Shown in pieces: positions 41,843 to 52,677 of a stretch of DNA of 64,000 bases. The DNA lies in contig NZ_VTRT01000008.1 in assembly GCF_008274585.1 (NCBI RefSeq), positions 124,001 through 188,000 on the forward strand, written 5' to 3'. The position numbers were made by a program, and so were the translations under genes. The stretch is from Pedobacter sp. BS3 (GTDB lineage: Bacteria; Bacteroidota; Bacteroidia; Sphingobacteriales; Sphingobacteriaceae). Each line of letters opens with the position of its first letter. Within the stretch, counting starts at the first letter, position 1. Under the pieces are notes generated by a model that was not told the origin of the DNA, did not search any database, and was given only the letters and a program-made list of their open reading frames with translations.

Positions 41843-42430
41843 CTATAAATGAAGAAAGAAAACAAAAAACAGGTAAGTAATTCCGTGGTAATCGAAGTGC
41901 CGGCGTAACGTTTTTAAAGCAGCAACCAAATGGTTTTTAACAGTATTTTTTGAGATATTTAACCGCTCTGCGATCTCCTCATGCGATAACCCGTCAAACC
42001 TGCTTAACCGGAAGATCAATTGCTGTTGCTTGGGAAGTTCGGATATAGCATTCTCGGTAAAACGCATTAAATCAGACAGAAACACGATTTCTTCTGTATG
42101 ATTATCATATTCTGTAAGCAAAGCAAACAATTGATCGCGAAGCTGTTGTGTACTTGTACCCTTACGAAAAGTATCTAAAACCAGCCGGCGGGCTATAGTA
42201 AATAAATAGGGATGTATGGGTAGTGTTTCATCCAGCTTATCCCTACTGGTCCATAAACTTAAAAACGTTTCCTGTACAATTTCTTCGCTTTGCTCCTTAT
42301 TTTTAAGAAAAGCATAAGCAAACTGGTAAACTTTACGATAGAAACGATCGTAAACAAGCCGAAAAGCATCCTGATCGCCTTTACGTAAGCGACCAACATC
42401 ATCTGAATTAATCATCGGCTCATGCGACAT
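41843..42430 (-). CDS. Orphan ECF RNA polymerase sigma factor
   Basis: 195 residues. Region 2 is FRLVYDRFYRKVYQFAYAFL with SEEIVQETFLSLW. Region 4 is ISELPKQQQLIFRLSRFDGL followed by the HTH EEIAERLNISKNTVKNHLVA. It is of the same ECF group as the PUL sigma factor, and such genes are normally followed by fecR, susC and susD. Here the downstream side holds only the hairpin spacer and the truncated GH2/ABC fragments, so its cognate PUL appears to have been lost. Start ATG at 42430 (MSHEPM); an internal ATG at 42415 is also possible. Confidence 0.9.
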   Translation of the reverse strand: MSHEPMINSDDVGRLRKGDQDAFRLVYDRFYRKVYQFAYAFLKNKEQSEEIVQETFLSLWTSRDKLDETLPIHPYLFTIARRLVLDTFRKGTSTQQLRDQLFALLTEYDNHTEEIVFLSDLMRFTENAISELPKQQQLIFRLSRFDGLSHEEIAERLNISKNTVKNHLVAALKTLRRHFDYHGITYLFFVFFLHL

Positions 42431-42720
42431 AATTGGACAGTTTACCTAAAGCGTTAATTTTTGGGATGACCAGCAATTAGCTCAAACTTATGAAAATCTG
42501 CTACAAATGCAAAAAAGTTGAAAGTGAAAAGCTGAGCGCAGCGCTCCTGCCACTTGTCTCGATAACTCAGAGTTCGAGTTAAAAGCCATGCATAAAATAC
42601 CTGTATTCTAAATGCTTAAATAAGACATATTATTCCATTAAAATCACACGGCCTTATATTTTGCTTTAAAAAATCGACCTGCTTTGTGCATTTACACAAT
42701 GAAATTTAATAATGTATTTA

Positions 42721-42728
42721 TATCTTTG
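42721..42728 (+). promoter_or_regulatory. -7 promoter box of tRNA-Arg
   Basis: TATCTTTG, matching TAnnTTTG, 7 bp before the first base of the tRNA. Confidence 0.55.
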
Positions 42729-42735
42729 CGCCACT

Positions 42736-42807
42736 GCACCCGTAGTTCAATGGATAGAATGTCAGATTCCGGTTCTGATGATAGGAGTTCGAATCTCTTC
42801 GGGTGCA
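42736..42807 (+). tRNA. trnR: tRNA-Arg, anticodon CCG
   Basis: A 72-nt cloverleaf. The acceptor is GCACCCG/CGGGTGC with discriminator A. The anticodon arm TCAGATTCCGGTTCTGA has anticodon CCG, and the T arm contains GAGTTCGAATCTC. CCA is not encoded. It decodes CGG. Confidence 0.96.
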
Positions 42808-42934
42808 CAAGCCAGGCGAAAAAGTCAGTATATGATTTTTTCGCTTTTTTATTTGGAGACACTTGCACGCATGACTGAATACTCTATTGGATTTGTTGAG
42901 CGATTGCTATCTTATCAGGATATAAAACGGCACT

Positions 42935-43327
42935 TTACTTACCCAATAAGCGAGCGAACAATTCTATTTTGTCAAATTCTGTATACAGATGGGTATAGCC
43001 TATTGCAACGCAAACCGATAATAAATTCCCTATTAAATAATAGTCATTAAACTTATTATCCAATTCTCTTTTATTTTCTTTGTTGTCTGTTGTTTCACTA
43101 TGCTTTAATCGTGTAGCAAGCTTTAAAGCACTAAAGAATGTTAACGCACTGGTTTGAGAGTTGATCAGGGCAACCATAAGAAATGTCCTTTCCAATACTC
43201 CCTTTATAACCGATCGCCAATCAATACCGTTCTTTTTATACCATATTTGTGCAATTGCGCTAAATACAAATGCCAGAATAATCTCACTTACAAGCATTAT
43301 ACTGAATAATATAGAAAATTTACCCAT
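42935..43327 (-). CDS. Small membrane protein coupled to SatD
   Basis: About 130 residues from the ATG at 43327 (MGKFSILFSIMLVSEIILAF). Three hydrophobic segments are visible (about 6-28, 45-60 and 92-110), separated by a charged loop (LKHSETTDNKENKREL). I do not recognise a family. Its start overlaps the end of the SatD-like gene by 8 bp, indicating translational coupling and a shared function. In other bacteria SatD homologues also neighbour a membrane protein, so this may be the equivalent partner, though with an unrelated-looking sequence. Confidence 0.7.
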   Translation of the reverse strand: MGKFSILFSIMLVSEIILAFVFSAIAQIWYKKNGIDWRSVIKGVLERTFLMVALINSQTSALTFFSALKLATRLKHSETTDNKENKRELDNKFNDYYLIGNLLSVCVAIGYTHLYTEFDKIELFARLLGK

Positions 43328-44689: not shown

Positions 44690-45325
44690 TCATACCGGTC
44701 TCCTTCCGACCTGCATTTTTGCTATTAAAACTACAGCAAACGATACTAACAGAAAGGCCAGACCTACTATCAGGCTGTTTCTCAGCACAAATGGGTATCC
44801 AATTTTATTGACATCAATAAAAGGGTACGGGTAAGTTTTTAGATAAAGTCCCAACAGCAGAATGTATACAAAATAGCACAAAGGATAAATCAACCAGCGA
44901 AACGACGTTTGCCAGTTTAATTCCTTTTTAGGTACGTATATAAACCAGTATAAGCTAAAACTTAACGGGATAACCACATGCAACAACTCATCAGCCAGAC
45001 GCTGAAGACCTGCGGGATGCCATAACCCGCGAAGGATAACATTGTATATTATCCCTACTATTACAATATACACAACAGTGCCGCCCAACACGGTAGGACG
45101 GGTAAAGAAACATGCACCATAATCTTTATTCGTTATTAGTGCAGTGCAACATATTGCAACCAATATATTGGTTAATATGGTAAAAAAGCTAAAGAATGTC
45201 ATCACGGTTTGGAACACCGGCGATGTACGGTTAACAAGTATAAGATATAACTGAAGCAAAATGGCGAACCACCCTGCTAAAGCAATCAAGAAAAGGAATA
45301 AGGTTTGTTTAGTTAGCATTGACAT
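44690..45325 (-). CDS. Pr6Pr-family membrane protein
   Basis: 211 residues with six transmembrane helices. The pattern FFSFFTILTNILVAIC, then LADELLHVVIPLSFSLYWFI and CYFVYILLLG, is that of the Pr6Pr family, related to the FAR-17a/AIG1 group. No enzymatic role is established for the bacterial members. It lies 26 bp downstream of the CHAT gene in the same direction, so it could be the last gene of that transcript. Confidence 0.82.
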   Translation of the reverse strand: MSMLTKQTLFLFLIALAGWFAILLQLYLILVNRTSPVFQTVMTFFSFFTILTNILVAICCTALITNKDYGACFFTRPTVLGGTVVYIVIVGIIYNVILRGLWHPAGLQRLADELLHVVIPLSFSLYWFIYVPKKELNWQTSFRWLIYPLCYFVYILLLGLYLKTYPYPFIDVNKIGYPFVLRNSLIVGLAFLLVSFAVVLIAKMQVGRRPV

Positions 45326-45351: not shown

Positions 45352-48060
45352 CTATATCCAATATTTCTTATATTTTCCTGAGCGCCAAAATACTATACCC
45401 ATAACCAGCAAAAACAACACTGCTCCCACATACCAATACCAATGTGTTAAAGCAGGTTCCGGTTTTAAGGTTTGCGGCTTACCGATATAAACCAGGTCGG
45501 CCCAGTAATAGGGTAATAACATGGCGGTATTGGCGTGTTTTGTACCAAGCCATTGCAATTTAGCCTGACGCAGCGCATTAGCCGTCGATTCTCCTTTTTG
45601 AAGATGTTCATAAAATGCGGTAACCAGCCCGGAAGCGGCTTTATCATTTACATTCCATAAACCGGCCAGCACTCCCCGGGTTCCGGCAGCAATAAATCCA
45701 TACGACAAACTAAGCACCCCCTCGCCTTTCGCAACTTCTCCATCGGCGGTACGACATGAGCTTAATACCACCAGCGACGGAACCTGCTGCTGGGCCGTCA
45801 GCTCGAACAGGAAAAAGCGTTTATCGATGAATTGTAATACCGGCTCATTTTTAAACGGATAAGAATGAGTACTGATGTGCAGGATATCGGTTTGTGGTAA
45901 AACGGCCTTAAACGTTTCCAGCGTTGCCTTTCGGTCTGTATAAAAGCTACCGCGAAACTTCCCGCTGATGGCTTTTGCCTCGGCCGCGACAGCAGGGATG
46001 GTAACGGCGGTATTGGGTGTCTGGGTAATAAAAAAACCGGCAAAGGTTGTTTGCCCGGATTGTTTCCTCGGCGCCTCGTTTAACCAGGTATTCAGCGAGT
46101 AGCTATATTGAATGTCAGTACGATGCAACAGAAACGGCCATTTTCGGATATCTGCTACATAATCAGGTCGGGTAACTAATGCATCAAACGGAACAAGGCC
46201 AAGTACATCATCGGCAACTATCAACACCTTTTCATGCTCGGTTCCGGTTAAACCGGTCAGGTATTTCCGGTAAATAGCGAACGATTGCTCATAAAAAGCC
46301 TGCGGATTATTCATCATGGCTGCTGCACCCTGATGATACCAGATTTGCAGGTAATCTTTAACAGCAGCCAGCTCCGTGGTGGCATTATTAATTCTGCGGA
46401 TGTCGAGCACCTTACCTTTTTCTGCCGCGATGATATAAACGGCGCTCGTATCGGCAAAATACTCAATCAGCCTGTACCCGGCAGGGATACGCTGCAAAAG
46501 TGCATTGCCGGTCAGCACCGTATGCTGTGCAAATGCCGAAGCCGGGTATTTTAACCGGATTTGTTTATTGACCGAGGCCAGCTCATACTGCGCCTCCTGT
46601 TTATTTTGCTGAAGTTTCTGCTTATCGCGATGATTAACCAGCGCTTCACGCTCATAATACACAATAGCCCGTTCCAATGCAACCCGCCGCTTGAAAAGCG
46701 TATCGGTTTGGGCTAAAGACGCGTGCTGCCTGTTGCGGTTCACCTGCTCTGACAACACCCGTGCTTTAGTACGCTCCGCGATATCCAGCAGGATTTGCGC
46801 ATAAACAGCGTCATGACTTTTTTGCCAGATGCGGTAAGCGATATCCATAGCCATTCCGGCAACATGTTTCGCATCGCCCTGGTAATGCAGCTTATCACTA
46901 ACCGTAGCGTATTCATTTCTGGAACGTTCACCGGTTTCCAGCGCCAGCAGGATATTATCCAGTGCAGCCCGGTCGTTGCCAAGGGCAAGCAGGCACCTGG
47001 CACGAACAATAAAGGCGTCGTATAAACGATTCTCGCCGTATAATACCTGCTTATCCGGCAAGGTTGTCCGTGTAAACTTGTATGTGGGGAGCAAAACATC
47101 TAATGCCTTGTTCGCATCATCCAATGCCTTTTCGGGATGTTTATCGTCAAGCCAGGTATTGGCGGTTTGTATCATCAGACCGGCCATTTCACGCCTGCGG
47201 CTACCCTTAAAGTACCGGTTGATTACATTCAATCCCTGGTTGTAATAACTTCGGGCAACACCCGGCTGATTATGCTTACGGGCCAGGTTACCGGCCAGTG
47301 TATAGGCGCTTAGCAACCAATAAGCCGTATTGGCCGATACATTGGTTTTCGTTAAAATGGCCAGGGCCTGCTCAACCGCGATGGTCGCTTGCTGATAGTC
47401 GCTATCATCATACCATACATCGGCCAGTGTATTGTATAACAGGCCTTTTTCGGATACGTCTTTTTTGAGATACAGAAATCCTTTTTTACAACAGTTTAAC
47501 GCCATAGCCAAATTGCCTGTTGATTTATAGGAAATAGCCATATTGCTGTACACCGATGCTATCAGCACACTGTCTTTACGGGCAAAGGCCATCGCCAGGT
47601 TTTTATCCTGTATAAATAAAGCCCGCGAATAATCGCCCAGGCGGGTATAATTGTTTCCCAGGGGTTTCAGCAGGTATTCGGCTATGTCGATTTGATTGGA
47701 GGGATGCTTCTGAAAATAGGCGTAAGCCTGCTCATAACAATCAATGGAGCGTAACACATTGCCATCGTAAAGCTGGTAATATCCCTGGTTAATCAGCAGG
47801 TTCAGAAAGGCTTCATGTTCGGCGGCGGTAGCCGGCTTTCGCCAAATGCCTGTGCCGGTCTGCATCAGTACGGCAAGCCGTTTATCCGGGTTTGTATGAC
47901 TGTAATCAATGCGGCTGTATATCCACTCGGACAGGTTATCGGCTTTCCTGAGGCTGTCCAGGCGGTTCTGTACCACATTTCCGGGTATCGCGAAAGCAAG
48001 AGCAGGGCAGCATACCAGTACCAGTACAATGAAATGGTGTACATATTTCCTGCTGTTCAT
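45352..48060 (-). CDS. Exported TPR-CHAT caspase-like protein with C-terminal anchor
   Basis: 902 residues. The signal peptide (HHFIVLVLVCCPALAFAIPG) is followed by an array of tetratricopeptide repeats (about 60-430, e.g. LGDYSRALFIQDKNLAMAFA). A linker helix region comes next (about 440-530), then a CHAT domain (about 590-850). The catalytic dyad is intact: H732 in ILHISTHSYPF and C769 in VVLSSCRTADG. One transmembrane helix near the C-terminus (YVGAVLFLLVMGIVFW) leaves a short KYKKYWI tail. The topology implies a periplasm-facing, inner-membrane-anchored protease candidate, unlike the cytoplasmic CHAT enzymes of defence systems. It follows the PKD-protein gene by 27 bp. Confidence 0.88.
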   Translation of the reverse strand: MNSRKYVHHFIVLVLVCCPALAFAIPGNVVQNRLDSLRKADNLSEWIYSRIDYSHTNPDKRLAVLMQTGTGIWRKPATAAEHEAFLNLLINQGYYQLYDGNVLRSIDCYEQAYAYFQKHPSNQIDIAEYLLKPLGNNYTRLGDYSRALFIQDKNLAMAFARKDSVLIASVYSNMAISYKSTGNLAMALNCCKKGFLYLKKDVSEKGLLYNTLADVWYDDSDYQQATIAVEQALAILTKTNVSANTAYWLLSAYTLAGNLARKHNQPGVARSYYNQGLNVINRYFKGSRRREMAGLMIQTANTWLDDKHPEKALDDANKALDVLLPTYKFTRTTLPDKQVLYGENRLYDAFIVRARCLLALGNDRAALDNILLALETGERSRNEYATVSDKLHYQGDAKHVAGMAMDIAYRIWQKSHDAVYAQILLDIAERTKARVLSEQVNRNRQHASLAQTDTLFKRRVALERAIVYYEREALVNHRDKQKLQQNKQEAQYELASVNKQIRLKYPASAFAQHTVLTGNALLQRIPAGYRLIEYFADTSAVYIIAAEKGKVLDIRRINNATTELAAVKDYLQIWYHQGAAAMMNNPQAFYEQSFAIYRKYLTGLTGTEHEKVLIVADDVLGLVPFDALVTRPDYVADIRKWPFLLHRTDIQYSYSLNTWLNEAPRKQSGQTTFAGFFITQTPNTAVTIPAVAAEAKAISGKFRGSFYTDRKATLETFKAVLPQTDILHISTHSYPFKNEPVLQFIDKRFFLFELTAQQQVPSLVVLSSCRTADGEVAKGEGVLSLSYGFIAAGTRGVLAGLWNVNDKAASGLVTAFYEHLQKGESTANALRQAKLQWLGTKHANTAMLLPYYWADLVYIGKPQTLKPEPALTHWYWYVGAVLFLLVMGIVFWRSGKYKKYWI

Positions 48061-48087
48061 TGAAGCCGTGTTTACCGGCTAATTTAA

Positions 48088-50064
48088 TTAAATTTTCCAG
48101 CTCAGGTAAAAGTACAGCCGTTGCCCCTCTTTACCGGGATAATAAAGGTAGCGCATACCCAAAGTCGGCCCCGTACGAACCAAACCAGCCTGCACATCGC
48201 CGAACAGGGCCACTTTCCAGGTATTAAAGCTGCTTTTATCCACAGCGGATTTCTCCTGGAACATCTCTGTTGTGCCTTGTGCATTAGCAACATATATATT
48301 TTTAGTGGTTTGTTTGGTGGTGCTCAGGTTGGCATTTACCAGTGTTCCGGCTCCTACTCCTACCCAGCGATTCAGGTTGTAACGTAATTGTACCGGGACA
48401 ATATCAATGGTTACCACCTTGCTTCTCAGGTATTCATCGGTATGGTCTATTTTATAATCACGCCCGTTATAAACAATATAGCCTTCGCCGGTATGGCTAA
48501 CCAATGTTTCCGATTCATCGTACCGGCTTACATATATTTCGGCCTGTAAATATTTACGATACGGCGCATAAGGCGAGATACTCAACCCGAAGCTGAAATT
48601 ATTATTCCCGGTAAGCTGTTTGGAAGCATGCCCGGGCCGTGTGCCGTAAACTGCTATAATGCCGGGTGATAATCCCGGTTTAAAGACTCCGCGGGAGCGA
48701 TTGGTATAAATAGGCTCATTTTTATCGAATACGATGGCTGCCTGACTGGCAAACGGCAGCTTTTTAGGTTTCTTAGTGAAGCGTACGCTATACTCAATGT
48801 ATCCCTTGGTAGAATCCACATCGTTTACCCCTTTCTGCTTCACGCCGGGCAGGTAAATGTTTTTGAACACAAACTGTACGCTATCTTTAAACCGCAGGGT
48901 ATCTATACAGCTCTGACCGGCGTAGGCCGAATCGCAGGGTAAACAACGCGGCTGCATATCGCCTATTTTCAGGCTGCTGACATCTACTACACCGGGCATT
49001 TTAACACCGATGGCTACTCTTTTAGCAGGCCCTTCGCCGGTATTCTGGAAACGTACCTTGTATTTCAACTCTCTTTTTTTGCCGGTAAACCGGTAATTCA
49101 TCCGCCGGTTTTTGAGCATCATTTTATTCGGGTCGTGTGAGGCGACAATCTGTAGCTGCAAATCAAAGGTTTCGGGTTTCAATATGGGGTCGTCGGGAAC
49201 AAACATCCCCGACAGGGTAACTACCGCGTTGGTGTCCTGCACCATTTCGGGCGTAGTTTTGAGCGATACAAAAAGGTAGCGTTCTTCGCCGGATTTCAGC
49301 CCGTTAAAATCCCATACGACATTTGCCCGGTATGCTTCATGCTTTTCTTTCGCACTGCTTCCGCTTGCCTTTTTCTGCTCTTCCGCCTTAGCGGCAGCGC
49401 CTTTCTGCTTCCAGTCTTCGACTGTTTTACCCGGAACATCCACATAAGCTAACTGCATATTCAAGGGCGATGCCGAACGTTTTTCGCCATGATAGGCACG
49501 CACATCCTGTAATACAAAGTTATTTTGCTTAAACTCCTTTTCGTTATACCATAAGGCGACCTTGCCTTTCATCTCCAAAGCGCCCCATTCGGGTTTATTC
49601 CGGTAACCTATCAGCAAAATCATTTCTTCGCCGGGACGCGGCATCCGGTTGGTTTTCATTTCAAGGCTTCCGCCGGATTTGAAAAACGCCGGTGCGTTGA
49701 CCGCGGCAATGGCTGTTGTTCTACTGGTTATCAGGATACGCTGGGGACGGCTTGGAGGTGGTTTCCCATCATCGTAATTATTGGTGGCATACAGGCGTAC
49801 ATTATATTTTCCCGTATCGGGATACGTGTGTAACGGCTCTTTCTCGAACGAAAACTGTCCGTCGCCAAACTCCCAGAAATAGGAATAGAACGGCGCAGGT
49901 GCTCCTGCAACGGGTCGTAAATCGCGTAAAGCGGAACTGAATCTAACCTGGTTGCCGGTTACCAGCGGATGAATGACAGCGGGAACGGTATCTGTAGCAG
50001 GCGTTTGTGCACCGGCACACAAACCTATCAGGCAGATAGTTAACGTAAGATAGAGGCGTTTCAT
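48088..50064 (-). CDS. Exported PKD-domain protein
   Basis: About 658 residues from the ATG at 50064 (an ATG two codons earlier is also possible). The signal peptide ends in GLCAGAQ. A PKD domain lies at about 40-110 (YFWEFGDGQFSFEKEPLHTY). A long beta-rich middle (DUF11-like, KVRFQNTGEGPAKRVAIGVK) follows. The C-terminal 170 residues show alternating aromatic strands ending in LYFYLSWKI, which resembles an outer-membrane barrel edge. I infer an envelope-spanning or surface partner of the CHAT protein, whose gene lies 27 bp downstream. Confidence 0.75.
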   Translation of the reverse strand: MKRLYLTLTICLIGLCAGAQTPATDTVPAVIHPLVTGNQVRFSSALRDLRPVAGAPAPFYSYFWEFGDGQFSFEKEPLHTYPDTGKYNVRLYATNNYDDGKPPPSRPQRILITSRTTAIAAVNAPAFFKSGGSLEMKTNRMPRPGEEMILLIGYRNKPEWGALEMKGKVALWYNEKEFKQNNFVLQDVRAYHGEKRSASPLNMQLAYVDVPGKTVEDWKQKGAAAKAEEQKKASGSSAKEKHEAYRANVVWDFNGLKSGEERYLFVSLKTTPEMVQDTNAVVTLSGMFVPDDPILKPETFDLQLQIVASHDPNKMMLKNRRMNYRFTGKKRELKYKVRFQNTGEGPAKRVAIGVKMPGVVDVSSLKIGDMQPRCLPCDSAYAGQSCIDTLRFKDSVQFVFKNIYLPGVKQKGVNDVDSTKGYIEYSVRFTKKPKKLPFASQAAIVFDKNEPIYTNRSRGVFKPGLSPGIIAVYGTRPGHASKQLTGNNNFSFGLSISPYAPYRKYLQAEIYVSRYDESETLVSHTGEGYIVYNGRDYKIDHTDEYLRSKVVTIDIVPVQLRYNLNRWVGVGAGTLVNANLSTTKQTTKNIYVANAQGTTEMFQEKSAVDKSSFNTWKVALFGDVQAGLVRTGPTLGMRYLYYPGKEGQRLYFYLSWKI

Positions 50065-50185
50065 TTCCATGGTTGATAAGGAAAGTTTAGCAATTATACA
50101 TATTCCGTTTTACGAAACAAACAGCGATGAGCCTGACGGCCCATCGCTTAACCACTTATCTGTCCCAAAACATCCGGAGTTCCTG

Positions 50186-51157
50186 TTAATAACCATCTAA
50201 GGCATTGATAGCGGTCTGAATAGCATCTTGTGTAGTTTCGCTTAAGCTCAGGGTTTCGCTCATGTTGGCGGTAATGGTGGCCTCTTTCTGAGCCAGGTAA
50301 TAATGACCATCCTTGATAGCGAACGATATGAATTTACCTTCAACGCCAACAGGCATGACATCGTCGTAGCTCTTTACTTTATTGGGTCCGTCGGGAGTGT
50401 ACAGCTGGGCGGCAACATTGCTTCCCTTAGCACAGAAGTACACGAACGTTTCACCGCTGAATCCACGGAAGGTAGCTAATGCACCGGGGTTATTTTGCAG
50501 CTCTACCCGCACGGTAGTTTTAGGATTGCTGTAGCTGTAGAACACATCGGTATTAATCCAGCCCAGGTTACCGAAATCAAAAATAAAGCTGTCGGTTGTT
50601 ACATCGCCTTTCACGTCGCGTTGTCCGCCTTGTCCGTTAGCATTTTGCGGCGGATTTTGCCATACCATCTGCTGGGCATCGTTTTGTACGCCCTGCCAGA
50701 TGTTGGTATAGGGTTTTCCGTTAGCCGGGATAGAAATCTTTACGGGCACGGCCAGCTCGTTATCCACGCTGCTGCCATTAGCTTTTACATCAATGTAGAT
50801 AAAACCATGCGATTCGAGCGGGGCGCCTGAAATGTGATTGGTGTTGGTTCCGCTCAACAATACCTGGCTGCGTTTCAGCATTTCGTAAGCCTCTACGGTT
50901 ACTGTACCGCTTACCGGGCTTCCGTTTTTGGTAAGCGAACCGGCCGGAAATGTAATTTTAGTTCCGCCGGCCAGTGTAACGGTTTGCGGTAAGGCCGAAG
51001 CATTGATGCTTACGGTTTGTTTTTTCGAGCCTAATTGCTCAGTAAATTCCTTCGCACTGCGTACAGAACCGGTACGGTCTGTTTTATCTTTTTTACATGC
51101 GGTAAATGCAGCTAATAAAACTGCTACTAATACGGGGGTTAATGTTGACTTTTTCAT
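50186..51157 (-). CDS. Lipoprotein of unknown function
   Basis: 323 residues with a lipoprotein signal ending in AAFTAC (C21) followed by KKDKTD. The mature part begins with a ZU5/Ig-like region common in Bacteroidota lipoproteins (VTLAGGTKITFPAGSLTKNG, then GTVTVEAYEML). The rest is all-beta. No catalytic motif is seen. It is divergent from the sigma factor at 51346 and precedes the PKD and CHAT genes on the same strand, so it may be the first gene of that transcript. Confidence 0.75.
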   Translation of the reverse strand: MKKSTLTPVLVAVLLAAFTACKKDKTDRTGSVRSAKEFTEQLGSKKQTVSINASALPQTVTLAGGTKITFPAGSLTKNGSPVSGTVTVEAYEMLKRSQVLLSGTNTNHISGAPLESHGFIYIDVKANGSSVDNELAVPVKISIPANGKPYTNIWQGVQNDAQQMVWQNPPQNANGQGGQRDVKGDVTTDSFIFDFGNLGWINTDVFYSYSNPKTTVRVELQNNPGALATFRGFSGETFVYFCAKGSNVAAQLYTPDGPNKVKSYDDVMPVGVEGKFISFAIKDGHYYLAQKEATITANMSETLSLSETTQDAIQTAINALDGY

Positions 51158-51345
51158 GTTATGTTCAATTTAGTAGTGCCTACTCGTTTATGGCCTTTCA
51201 GCATTCGCCATTTGTTTTTTGATGATATATCAGGCCCGTTTGATTTTTGTTACCCCTGTTACCTGAAAAAAATTTCAGATGTTTAACTTAGAGGCTGTAA
51301 AACAGGTTGAACCGGCTGAATAAACCTTTGATTAACACAAATAAA

Positions 51346-51933
51346 ATGGGCAAAACACATCCCGACCAGCAATACATTACGGCGCTGCTTACCAATAACC
51401 AGGTATTGATTGGGCAGATCTACAGTAAGTTCTTTGGTAAGATAAAACGGTATATCGTTAACAATAACGGCTCGGAAGATGATGCCGCCGATATTTTCCA
51501 GGAAGCGCTTATTGACATTTACCAGCAGGCAAAGCATAAGGCGTTTGTGCTTACGTGTCCGCTGGAACCCTTTTTACTGATGGTATGCAAACGCAAATGG
51601 CTTAATGAACTGAAAAAAAGAGCGGTTATACCGGTAACAAATCAGTCCGACGATTTATTATCTATTGGTGAGGATGTTTTTGCCCAGGCAGAAGAGCTGC
51701 TGAGGCAGGATGAAGAAGCCCGCCACTTTGCGGATATGTTTAAAAAGTTGGGTGAACGGTGCCAGGAGATTATCAGGCACAGCCTTACCGGCGAAGCACA
51801 GGAAAAAATCGCGGAAACGCTGGGCGTAACATACGGCTACCTGCGCAAAAAGAAATCGGAATGTATGGCGACACTGATTCAGTTAATTCAAAAGTCAAAA
51901 GTCAAAAGTCAAAAGTTAAAAGTTAAAAGTTAA
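51346..51933 (+). CDS. Sigma-70-family (ECF-like) sigma factor
   Basis: 195 residues from the ATG at 51346 (MGKTHPDQQYITALLTNNQV). Region 2 is EDDAADIFQEALIDIYQQAK. Region 4 contains GERCQEIIRHSLTGEAQEKI and the HTH AETLGVTYGYLRKKKSECMA. The last 13 residues (KSKVKSQKLKVKS) and the stop codon are encoded by the heptanucleotide repeat 51891-51936, so the C-terminus could vary in length between strains. It is followed 18 bp later by a membrane anti-sigma-like gene and is divergent from the lipoprotein/PKD/CHAT genes, its likely targets. Confidence 0.87.
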   Translation: MGKTHPDQQYITALLTNNQVLIGQIYSKFFGKIKRYIVNNNGSEDDAADIFQEALIDIYQQAKHKAFVLTCPLEPFLLMVCKRKWLNELKKRAVIPVTNQSDDLLSIGEDVFAQAEELLRQDEEARHFADMFKKLGERCQEIIRHSLTGEAQEKIAETLGVTYGYLRKKKSECMATLIQLIQKSKVKSQKLKVKS

Positions 51934-51936
51934 AAG
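51891..51936. repeat. Heptanucleotide tandem repeat
   Basis: Three units AAAGTCA followed by three units AAAGTTA and a partial AAAG. It encodes the sigma factor C-terminus and stop. The same heptamer text fills spacers at 2938-2970, 3586-3616, 13268-13298, 18005-18036, 19838-19872 and 53694-53720. Confidence 0.92.
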
Positions 51937-51951
51937 AAATACCATAAAATC

Positions 51952-52677
51952 ATGGAAACCTACAGCTTTGAAGATATTTCACGCTTTGCCGACGGCGAGA
52001 TGACGGGAGAAGAATTAACCCGTTTTGAGGAGCGCCTGCAACAGGACGAGAACCTGCGAAACGAGGTGGCTTTTTACCGTAATGTACAATCGTCGTTGCG
52101 GATGAAACTGGTAAAGGATGACCAGGACAAAGCTCTTGAAGATACCCTGCACAGACTTTCGAAAGAGCATAGCAGCCGTACCGCGAAGATTGTGCCTATG
52201 CGCCGGTACGCGGCCTGGGCTTCGGCCGTAGCCGCCGTCTTTGTAATTTTCATGGTTTGGATGCCCTGGAAGAAAGACCTTTACCAGCAATACAACACCA
52301 CCGAAATGCTGACTACCGCCGAGCGTGGCGATGCTACCACCAATAACATGCAAACTGCTGCCGATGCCTTTAATAACAAGGATTTTGAAAAGGCCAAAAC
52401 ATTACTGGCACAAGTGGTTCAGGCTGAGCCGGATAACAGCATGGCCCGGTTTTATTATGGTGTTTCCTTACTGGAAACCGGCGATATTGCCCAGTCCAGG
52501 AAAACGTTAGCTGATGTTTACCAGGGTGCGTCCGTATTCAAATACGAAGCGGCTTTCTATATCGCACTAAGTTATCTAAAGCAACACGACAAGTCTCATT
52601 GCAAGGAATGGTTAATTAAAATCCCAACCGATGCAGCTAACTATGATAAGGCGCAGGAGCTGTTGGGGAAGTTGTAG
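51952..52677 (+). CDS. Membrane-anchored anti-sigma-like TPR protein
   Basis: 241 residues. The N-terminus (DISRFADGEMTGEELTRFEE, then LRNEVAFYRNVQSSL) resembles the cytoplasmic domain of anti-sigma factors but lacks the zinc-binding HxxxCxxC. One transmembrane helix lies at about 84-102 (WASAVAAVFVIFMVW). The periplasmic part has two or three TPRs (FNNKDFEKAKTLLAQVVQAE, MARFYYGVSLLETGDIAQSR). It follows the sigma gene by 18 bp, so it probably holds the sigma factor at the membrane and could sense periplasmic TPR partners such as the CHAT protein. Confidence 0.82.
   Translation: METYSFEDISRFADGEMTGEELTRFEERLQQDENLRNEVAFYRNVQSSLRMKLVKDDQDKALEDTLHRLSKEHSSRTAKIVPMRRYAAWASAVAAVFVIFMVWMPWKKDLYQQYNTTEMLTTAERGDATTNNMQTAADAFNNKDFEKAKTLLAQVVQAEPDNSMARFYYGVSLLETGDIAQSRKTLADVYQGASVFKYEAAFYIALSYLKQHDKSHCKEWLIKIPTDAANYDKAQELLGKL

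Follow-up and report, generated by a model that had tools for sequence, protein, structure and literature searches.

What does a CHAT protease do when it carries an apparent export signal and lies across from a sigma factor and a putative membrane-bound anti-sigma factor? The question is raised by a locus at positions 45352–52677 of a stretch of 64,000 nucleotides (hereafter the window) from the 4.8 Mb genome of Pedobacter sp. BS3 (RefSeq assembly GCF_008274585.1, contig NZ_VTRT01000008.1, positions 124,001 to 188,000). Clan CD CHAT enzymes are familiar from separase, gasdermin defence and CRISPR. Here we find a conserved unit of five genes in Bacteroidota, in which a sigma/anti-sigma pair faces a lipoprotein, a PKD/barrel protein and a protein combining tetratricopeptide repeats (TPRs) with a CHAT domain. 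The answer that we favour, to which we give about an even chance, is that of a dedicated envelope-sensing extracytoplasmic function (ECF) sigma system with CHAT acting upstream, on the anti-sigma.

A conserved five-gene unit

All of the genes named in the initial annotation are present at the locus. The features are as follows.

45352..48060 (-): TPR-CHAT protease, predicted to be exported, dyad H732/C769; 902 aa (Pfam, homologues and model)
48088..50070 (-): PKD-DUF7619-DUF7849 protein (domain matches and predicted model), barrel at residues 466-660
50186..51157 (-): exported lipoprotein, lipobox Cys C21 invariant, no Pfam family
51177..51211 (-): DUF805b RNA (Rfam RF02914), an orphan RNA and candidate cis-regulatory element in the leader of the lipoprotein gene; 36.4 bits
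51227..51255 (-): predicted sigma promoter of the lipoprotein-PKD-CHAT operon; -35 GGGTAACA at 51255-51248, -10 TGATAT at 51232-51227
51346..51933 (+): ECF-type sigma factor; the ATG at 51346 is the likely start within a frame open from TTG 51307
51952..52677 (+): transmembrane anti-sigma-like protein; transmembrane helix 86-104, then a TPR part predicted to be periplasmic
44690-45325: Pr6Pr membrane protein, 26 bp downstream of CHAT and outside the conserved unit

The minus-strand set of lipoprotein, PKD and CHAT genes, divergent from the sigma gene and the TPR-bearing anti-sigma-like gene, was thus found as it had been described, with CHAT as the third gene of the operon, 27 bp behind PKD. 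Pr6Pr had been counted in the same set; it adjoins CHAT in the window and does not do so in the loci of relatives, and we rejected its membership.

We compared the locus with 37 loci of related genomes and with 80 named Bacteroidota loci retrieved via the PKD protein, counting gene order on all open frames and using only loci with room for the neighbour as denominators. The order anti-sigma, sigma, divergent lipoprotein, PKD and CHAT is found in Pedobacter, Mucilaginibacter, Chitinophaga, Niastella, Lutibacter, Aquimarina, Fulvivirga and others. It recurs across Sphingobacteriaceae, Chitinophagaceae, Flavobacteriaceae and Fulvivirgaceae, which rules out a chance grouping. CHAT stands directly behind PKD in 69/74 named loci, and direct inspection of a further locus (L144) likewise revealed CHAT; a divergent sigma/anti-sigma pair lies at most 7 kb away in 60/71. 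The scattering of these genes in relatives, which the initial annotation had named as grounds for abandoning the idea, is therefore not what we observe. In a sample of 296 Bacteroidota genomes the DUF7849/PKD barrel domain occurs in 16 (15 above the cut-off), and CHAT adjoins it in all 14 of the loci fetched from this sample besides the window.

The exceptions to this linkage are informative. Three genomes (Nubsella and two Chitinophaga) have sigma, anti-sigma, lipoprotein and PKD at the site, where CHAT is absent; each of them carries one intact CHAT of the same subfamily elsewhere (3/3; E below 1e-270). Conversely, where PKD and CHAT lack a local divergent sigma, a close sigma orthologue is encoded elsewhere in 11 of 12 genomes or records (two of the 12, G117 and G416, look like one genome). 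These relocated orthologues score 239-279 bits, with the next best at 126 bits or less; the twelfth case, G156, has a sigma relative of 126 bits only. The parts of the module are thus retained together in a genome even after their linkage is lost.

A shared promoter and its predicted regulon

The intergenic regions share GGGGTAACAA and, after a fixed spacer, TTGATAT. The motif faces the lipoprotein or PKD gene in 79/87 orthologous intergenic regions, compared with 1.66 expected from shuffles, and in the window it occupies 51255-51227(-), with the lipoprotein ATG 70 bp further on. In 3.39 Mb of fetched DNA we counted 120 strict matches, 87 of which fall within 900 bp upstream of a lipoprotein or PKD gene. 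Most of the remaining ones are found 15-106 bp upstream of further genes in these loci, many of them exported-looking (for example OmpA-family proteins in L063-L068). Autoregulation of sigma through the same promoter was considered and rejected (the motif faces sigma in just 2/87).

Where sigma is unlinked, the motif is retained before PKD or the lipoprotein in four loci (L089, L092, L141 and L142), and in three others with sigma elsewhere (L052, L054 and L057) it takes a weaker form. It is absent in L082, from G156, the one tested genome that has no close sigma orthologue. Two Lutibacter loci (L124 and L125) have no motif within 6.5 kb, and PKD is there part of a longer operon. As judged from these sequences, the presence of the conserved promoter tracks that of a close sigma orthologue, so that the module sigma is its presumed user and very probably drives the lipoprotein-PKD-CHAT operon. 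The proposal that the sigma regulon would include PKD and CHAT is in the main supported by the promoter motif of this operon, but not for the relocated CHAT genes of the three genomes mentioned above, which have no promoter motif in front.

The predicted regulon extends to a few further genes. In the window genome, two of the three one-mismatch sites precede exported proteins (a lipoprotein of 190 aa and a protein of at least 491 aa), and an additional exact match (C12:295008) has no gene behind it. In L063 (5865-7655) and with the c8 homologues in L062, L064, L065, L067, L068 and L085, the motif lies ahead of a gene for an OmpA-type outer-membrane protein, which is convergent with CHAT, and not ahead of the PKD operon; this group likely represents a switch of regulon member.

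The sigma factor and its putative membrane anti-sigma

The sigma factor matches the NCBIfam sigma70-ECF model (TIGR02937) with 57.2 bits (cut-off 42.9), while Pfam region 2 alone gives 19.1 bits, under the cut-off of 24. It is 40-70% identical to its orthologues, most of which begin near M14. Because of these starts and of the DNA itself, ATG 51346 (195 aa) is a more likely start than TTG 51307. A few genes from the module, and on the same strand as CHAT, the window encodes another ECF sigma (195 aa; 41843-42430, minus strand), which has strong Pfam region 2 and region 4 matches, unlike the module sigma. An open frame at 42712-43050(+) starts with VVQWIECQIPVLMIGVRISSGAQ, a pattern that usually results from reading through a tRNA gene, and is probably not a protein gene.

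The anti-sigma-like gene directly follows sigma, here and in almost every related locus. Its product has one transmembrane helix (86-104) and C-terminal TPRs; the predicted topology places the N-terminal part in the cytoplasm, where it would bind sigma, and the TPRs in the periplasm. An arginine in the linker after the helix (R125) is near-invariant in the module (93%).

A probable exported, membrane-anchored TPR-CHAT protease

The CHAT domain (PF12770, 158.9 bits, cut-off 24) is accompanied by TPRs. H732 and C769 are conserved without exception, in 37/37 and 58/58 close homologues and, on a broader set, in 153/153 alignable ones, with the surrounding CHAT motifs likewise kept. The window protein has a signal-like N-terminus and a C-terminal transmembrane helix (874-892), and among 152 CHAT proteins we found a hydrophobic N-terminus in 145, a C-terminal transmembrane helix in 124 and a positively charged tail in 116 of these 124. 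This combination points to a TPR-CHAT part in the periplasm, with the tail in the cytoplasm. The claim of an exported CHAT protein with an intact dyad and a C-terminal anchor is supported.

The AlphaFold model (mean confidence score, pLDDT, 90.8) has a caspase-like fold after the TPR helices. Its best fold match is Csx29 of Craspase (Z 31.9, 566 residues aligned, root-mean-square deviation 6.4 Å), and separase also matches (Z 28). With the CHAT domain alone, the only sequence match in the PDB is DdvA, in which a cysteine aligns with C769. A scan with a defence library returned one weak match to CHAT (BovA, 19.6 bits). From sequence and fold, this is probably an active periplasmic CHAT protease, and it may be expected to cleave some protein.

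Two further observations concern related proteins. The window genome encodes a second exported CHAT protein (962 aa; L083:8702-11590, G000:C24) with an intact dyad, no sigma/anti-sigma neighbours and no obvious C-terminal anchor. In three loci (L055:11468-12082, L058:11463-12227 and L307:4160-4750) a second transmembrane TPR protein, related to the anti-sigma, is convergent with CHAT; in L307 it has no apparent sigma-binding N-terminus, and it accompanies CHAT even where the latter has moved away from sigma.

Probable partners at the outer membrane and a candidate leader RNA

The model of the PKD protein (pLDDT 86) ends in a barrel whose matches include the eight-stranded barrels of Ail and OmpA. 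DUF7849 is thus most likely an eight-stranded outer-membrane β-barrel, and PKD and DUF7619 would most likely be its N-terminal Ig-like domains. For the lipoprotein, no Pfam family was found among 24 members, apart from stray matches.

The DUF805b RNA (51211-51177, minus strand) lies between the predicted promoter and the lipoprotein start codon and is the sole above-cut-off copy in the window genome (gathering threshold 35.6 bits, E 1.3e-8). It occurs in 80/121 genomes of the family, ahead of many other genes. It was thus rejected as an element specific to the module and would add regulation of a more general kind to that by the promoter. In other genomes of the family, short exported proteins or GG-leader-like peptides are frequently encoded behind it. 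A literature search found no paper on this RNA.

CHAT in the wider sigma/TPR-anti-sigma family

Starting from an anti-sigma alignment search, we read the surroundings of 50 further homologues. Sigma adjoins in 43/50 and CHAT is found within 5 kb in 34/50, in varied orientations and with no PKD-DUF7849; these counts come from the best-scoring anti-sigma matches, and the fraction over all homologues may be lower. The exported partner varies (β-helix or PKD lipoproteins, subtilases), and in some relatives a subtilase lies between sigma/anti-sigma and CHAT. Exported subtilases (Peptidase_S8) adjoining CHAT in L217 (10893-12206) and L190 (9995-11377) recall the subtilase and CHAT context of ECF54. 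Replacement of CHAT by another caspase in the CHAT-less loci was rejected: ten neighbours were scanned and none was a caspase, the neighbours being TonB-type receptors, OmpA/PD40, PKD and other proteins.

Some genomes hold several paralogous systems. In the 11 genomes covered by this test, the distances between CHAT proteins follow those between the anti-sigmas of their own loci (1/500 swaps as good) and those between the sigmas (3/500).

Does CHAT act on the anti-sigma or downstream of sigma?

The mechanism that we propose may be outlined as follows. At rest, the membrane anti-sigma would hold sigma by its cytoplasmic N-terminus and display its TPRs in the periplasm. The exported TPR-CHAT protein, anchored in the inner membrane through its C-terminal helix, would place its protease domain in the same compartment as these TPRs. 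CHAT would be activated by a cue that probably either reaches the TPRs themselves or is passed on from the outer membrane by the PKD/barrel protein or the lipoprotein. Like a site-1 protease, CHAT would then cut the periplasmic part of the anti-sigma, the juxtamembrane R125 region being one candidate site, not specific to CHAT-linked loci. Once freed by further proteolysis, sigma would act at GGGGTAACAA - TTGATAT promoters to transcribe the lipoprotein-PKD-CHAT operon together with a small number of other genes for exported proteins, with positive feedback and surface remodelling as the expected outcome.

We favour CHAT as the anti-sigma protease because it is tied to sigma/TPR-anti-sigma pairs generally while the other partners vary, because it co-varies with the anti-sigma of its own locus, and because it can leave the sigma-driven operon without being lost, whereas the lipoprotein and PKD genes keep the promoter. 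Several observations weigh against this choice. CHAT usually lies inside the sigma-driven operon, which fits the role of an effector as well. About a third of the wider-family sigma/anti-sigma loci have no CHAT within 5 kb, and the co-variation test covers 11 genomes. The N-terminus of the anti-sigma scores under the cut-off with each of the known models (RseA_N 15.4 bits for 24, zf-HC2 13.7 for 22.2 and NF052375 36.2 for 100). R125 is present in 57% of homologues without a CHAT neighbour, compared with 63% of those with CHAT outside the module, and is hence rejected as a diagnostic cleavage site.

The main rival, which we consider rather unlikely, makes CHAT an effector: sigma would be freed otherwise, for instance by another site-1 protease, and would induce the operon, and CHAT would mature or destroy envelope or surface proteins (the PKD/barrel protein, the lipoprotein or proteins of invaders). 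The position of CHAT as the normal third gene of the induced operon speaks for this model, and the adjacency of PKD and CHAT outlasts their separation from sigma. It accounts less readily for the three genomes in which CHAT is outside the operon and promoterless, yet intact, for the wider family, where CHAT is linked with sigma/TPR-anti-sigma pairs in the absence of both PKD and this lipoprotein, and for the co-variation of CHAT with its anti-sigma.

CHAT could also be mainly a non-proteolytic co-regulator, whose TPR scaffold binds the TPRs of the anti-sigma and gates the release of sigma, as a two-protein counterpart of the single-chain DdvA. The precedent of DdvA, described as a transmembrane anti-sigma and carrying a CHAT domain, the TPRs and membrane anchors of both proteins, and the L307 protein that adjoins a relocated CHAT all speak for it; the invariance of H732 and C769 (153/153), together with their motifs, is hard to explain without catalysis, and we regard this explanation as quite improbable. 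That two divergent units merely share a locus while serving separate pathways is highly improbable: the two parts are unlinked in some relatives, and Pr6Pr shows that unrelated genes can join the same strand run, but the separated parts stay in the same genome with the promoter kept, and the linkage recurs in differing orientations in paralogous families.

If CHAT is indeed the anti-sigma protease, it would provide a new transmembrane signalling route for Bacteroidota. The gene order and the shared promoter open a caspase-like signalling step in the bacterial periplasm to direct testing, for which the promoter, the split loci and the one catalytic cysteine offer simple handles in laboratory strains.

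Comparison with known systems

In Craspase, the TPR-CHAT protease Csx29 cleaves Csx30, the inhibitor of the sigma factor CASP-sigma (PMC10028731). In both Craspase/DiCASP and the present system, a TPR-CHAT protease of similar fold is genetically linked with a sigma factor and the known or putative inhibitor of that factor. However, Csx29 is cytoplasmic, RNA-activated and bound to Cas7-11, whereas CHAT here is predicted to leave the cytoplasm and to be held in the membrane, and sigma is paired with a membrane TPR protein in which no similarity to Csx30 was detected. The Csx29 family model (NF041237) gives 13.9 bits for the window CHAT, far under its cut-off of 300, and no Cas gene was found among the 10 scanned genes at the locus; with the protein exported as well, the system is not a Craspase. 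Nor was there any gasdermin family match in these 10 genes, as would be expected for gasdermin-CHAT defence.

DdvA, from Myxococcus, has DdvS as its sigma partner and a CBASS-CRISPR island as its target genes. It joins a CHAT domain and an anti-sigma role in a membrane protein; PDB entries 8rot and 8rw5 are entitled 'transmembrane anti-sigma factor DdvA', with CHAT domain-containing protein as the molecule name. By this title one chain fulfils both roles, whereas here and in relatives the anti-sigma and TPR-CHAT are separate genes. For ECF54, subtilase and CHAT proteins are conserved in the genetic context and proteolytic control has been proposed, the group being treated among mainly actinobacterial mechanisms and without an anti-sigma factor (PMC8999054). 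CHAT near sigma and, in some relatives, a subtilase recall this context; unlike ECF54, almost every locus has an anti-sigma-like gene after sigma.

The sigma-E pathway of RseA, DegS and RseP resembles the proposed mechanism in its membrane anti-sigma, periplasmic site-1 protease and envelope regulon, but DegS is a serine protease with a PDZ domain and another sensor, and has no homology to CHAT. Separase, a clan CD enzyme, shares the TPR-like helices and the caspase-like domain; it is eukaryotic, cleaves cohesin and has neither a signal peptide nor a membrane anchor.

Literature searches returned nothing directly on a sigma-linked, exported CHAT protein of Bacteroidetes. The novelty seen in the initial annotation has to be softened, since CHAT is already linked to sigma or anti-sigma factors in Csx29/Csx30, the ECF54 context and DdvA. 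Systems of this kind are therefore known; what is new is the exported form, divided between two proteins and with a predicted outer-membrane regulon. Tentatively, and with somewhat less than even confidence, we suggest that such CHAT proteases may make up a class of their own in Bacteroidota, acting in the periplasm as site-1-type proteases on membrane anti-sigmas, an extracytoplasmic counterpart of Csx29-Csx30-CASP-sigma with several paralogous systems per genome and caspase/separase-type control of envelope transcription. If so, the logic of Craspase, in which a protease cuts a sigma inhibitor, would also serve ordinary envelope signalling, which may be its origin.

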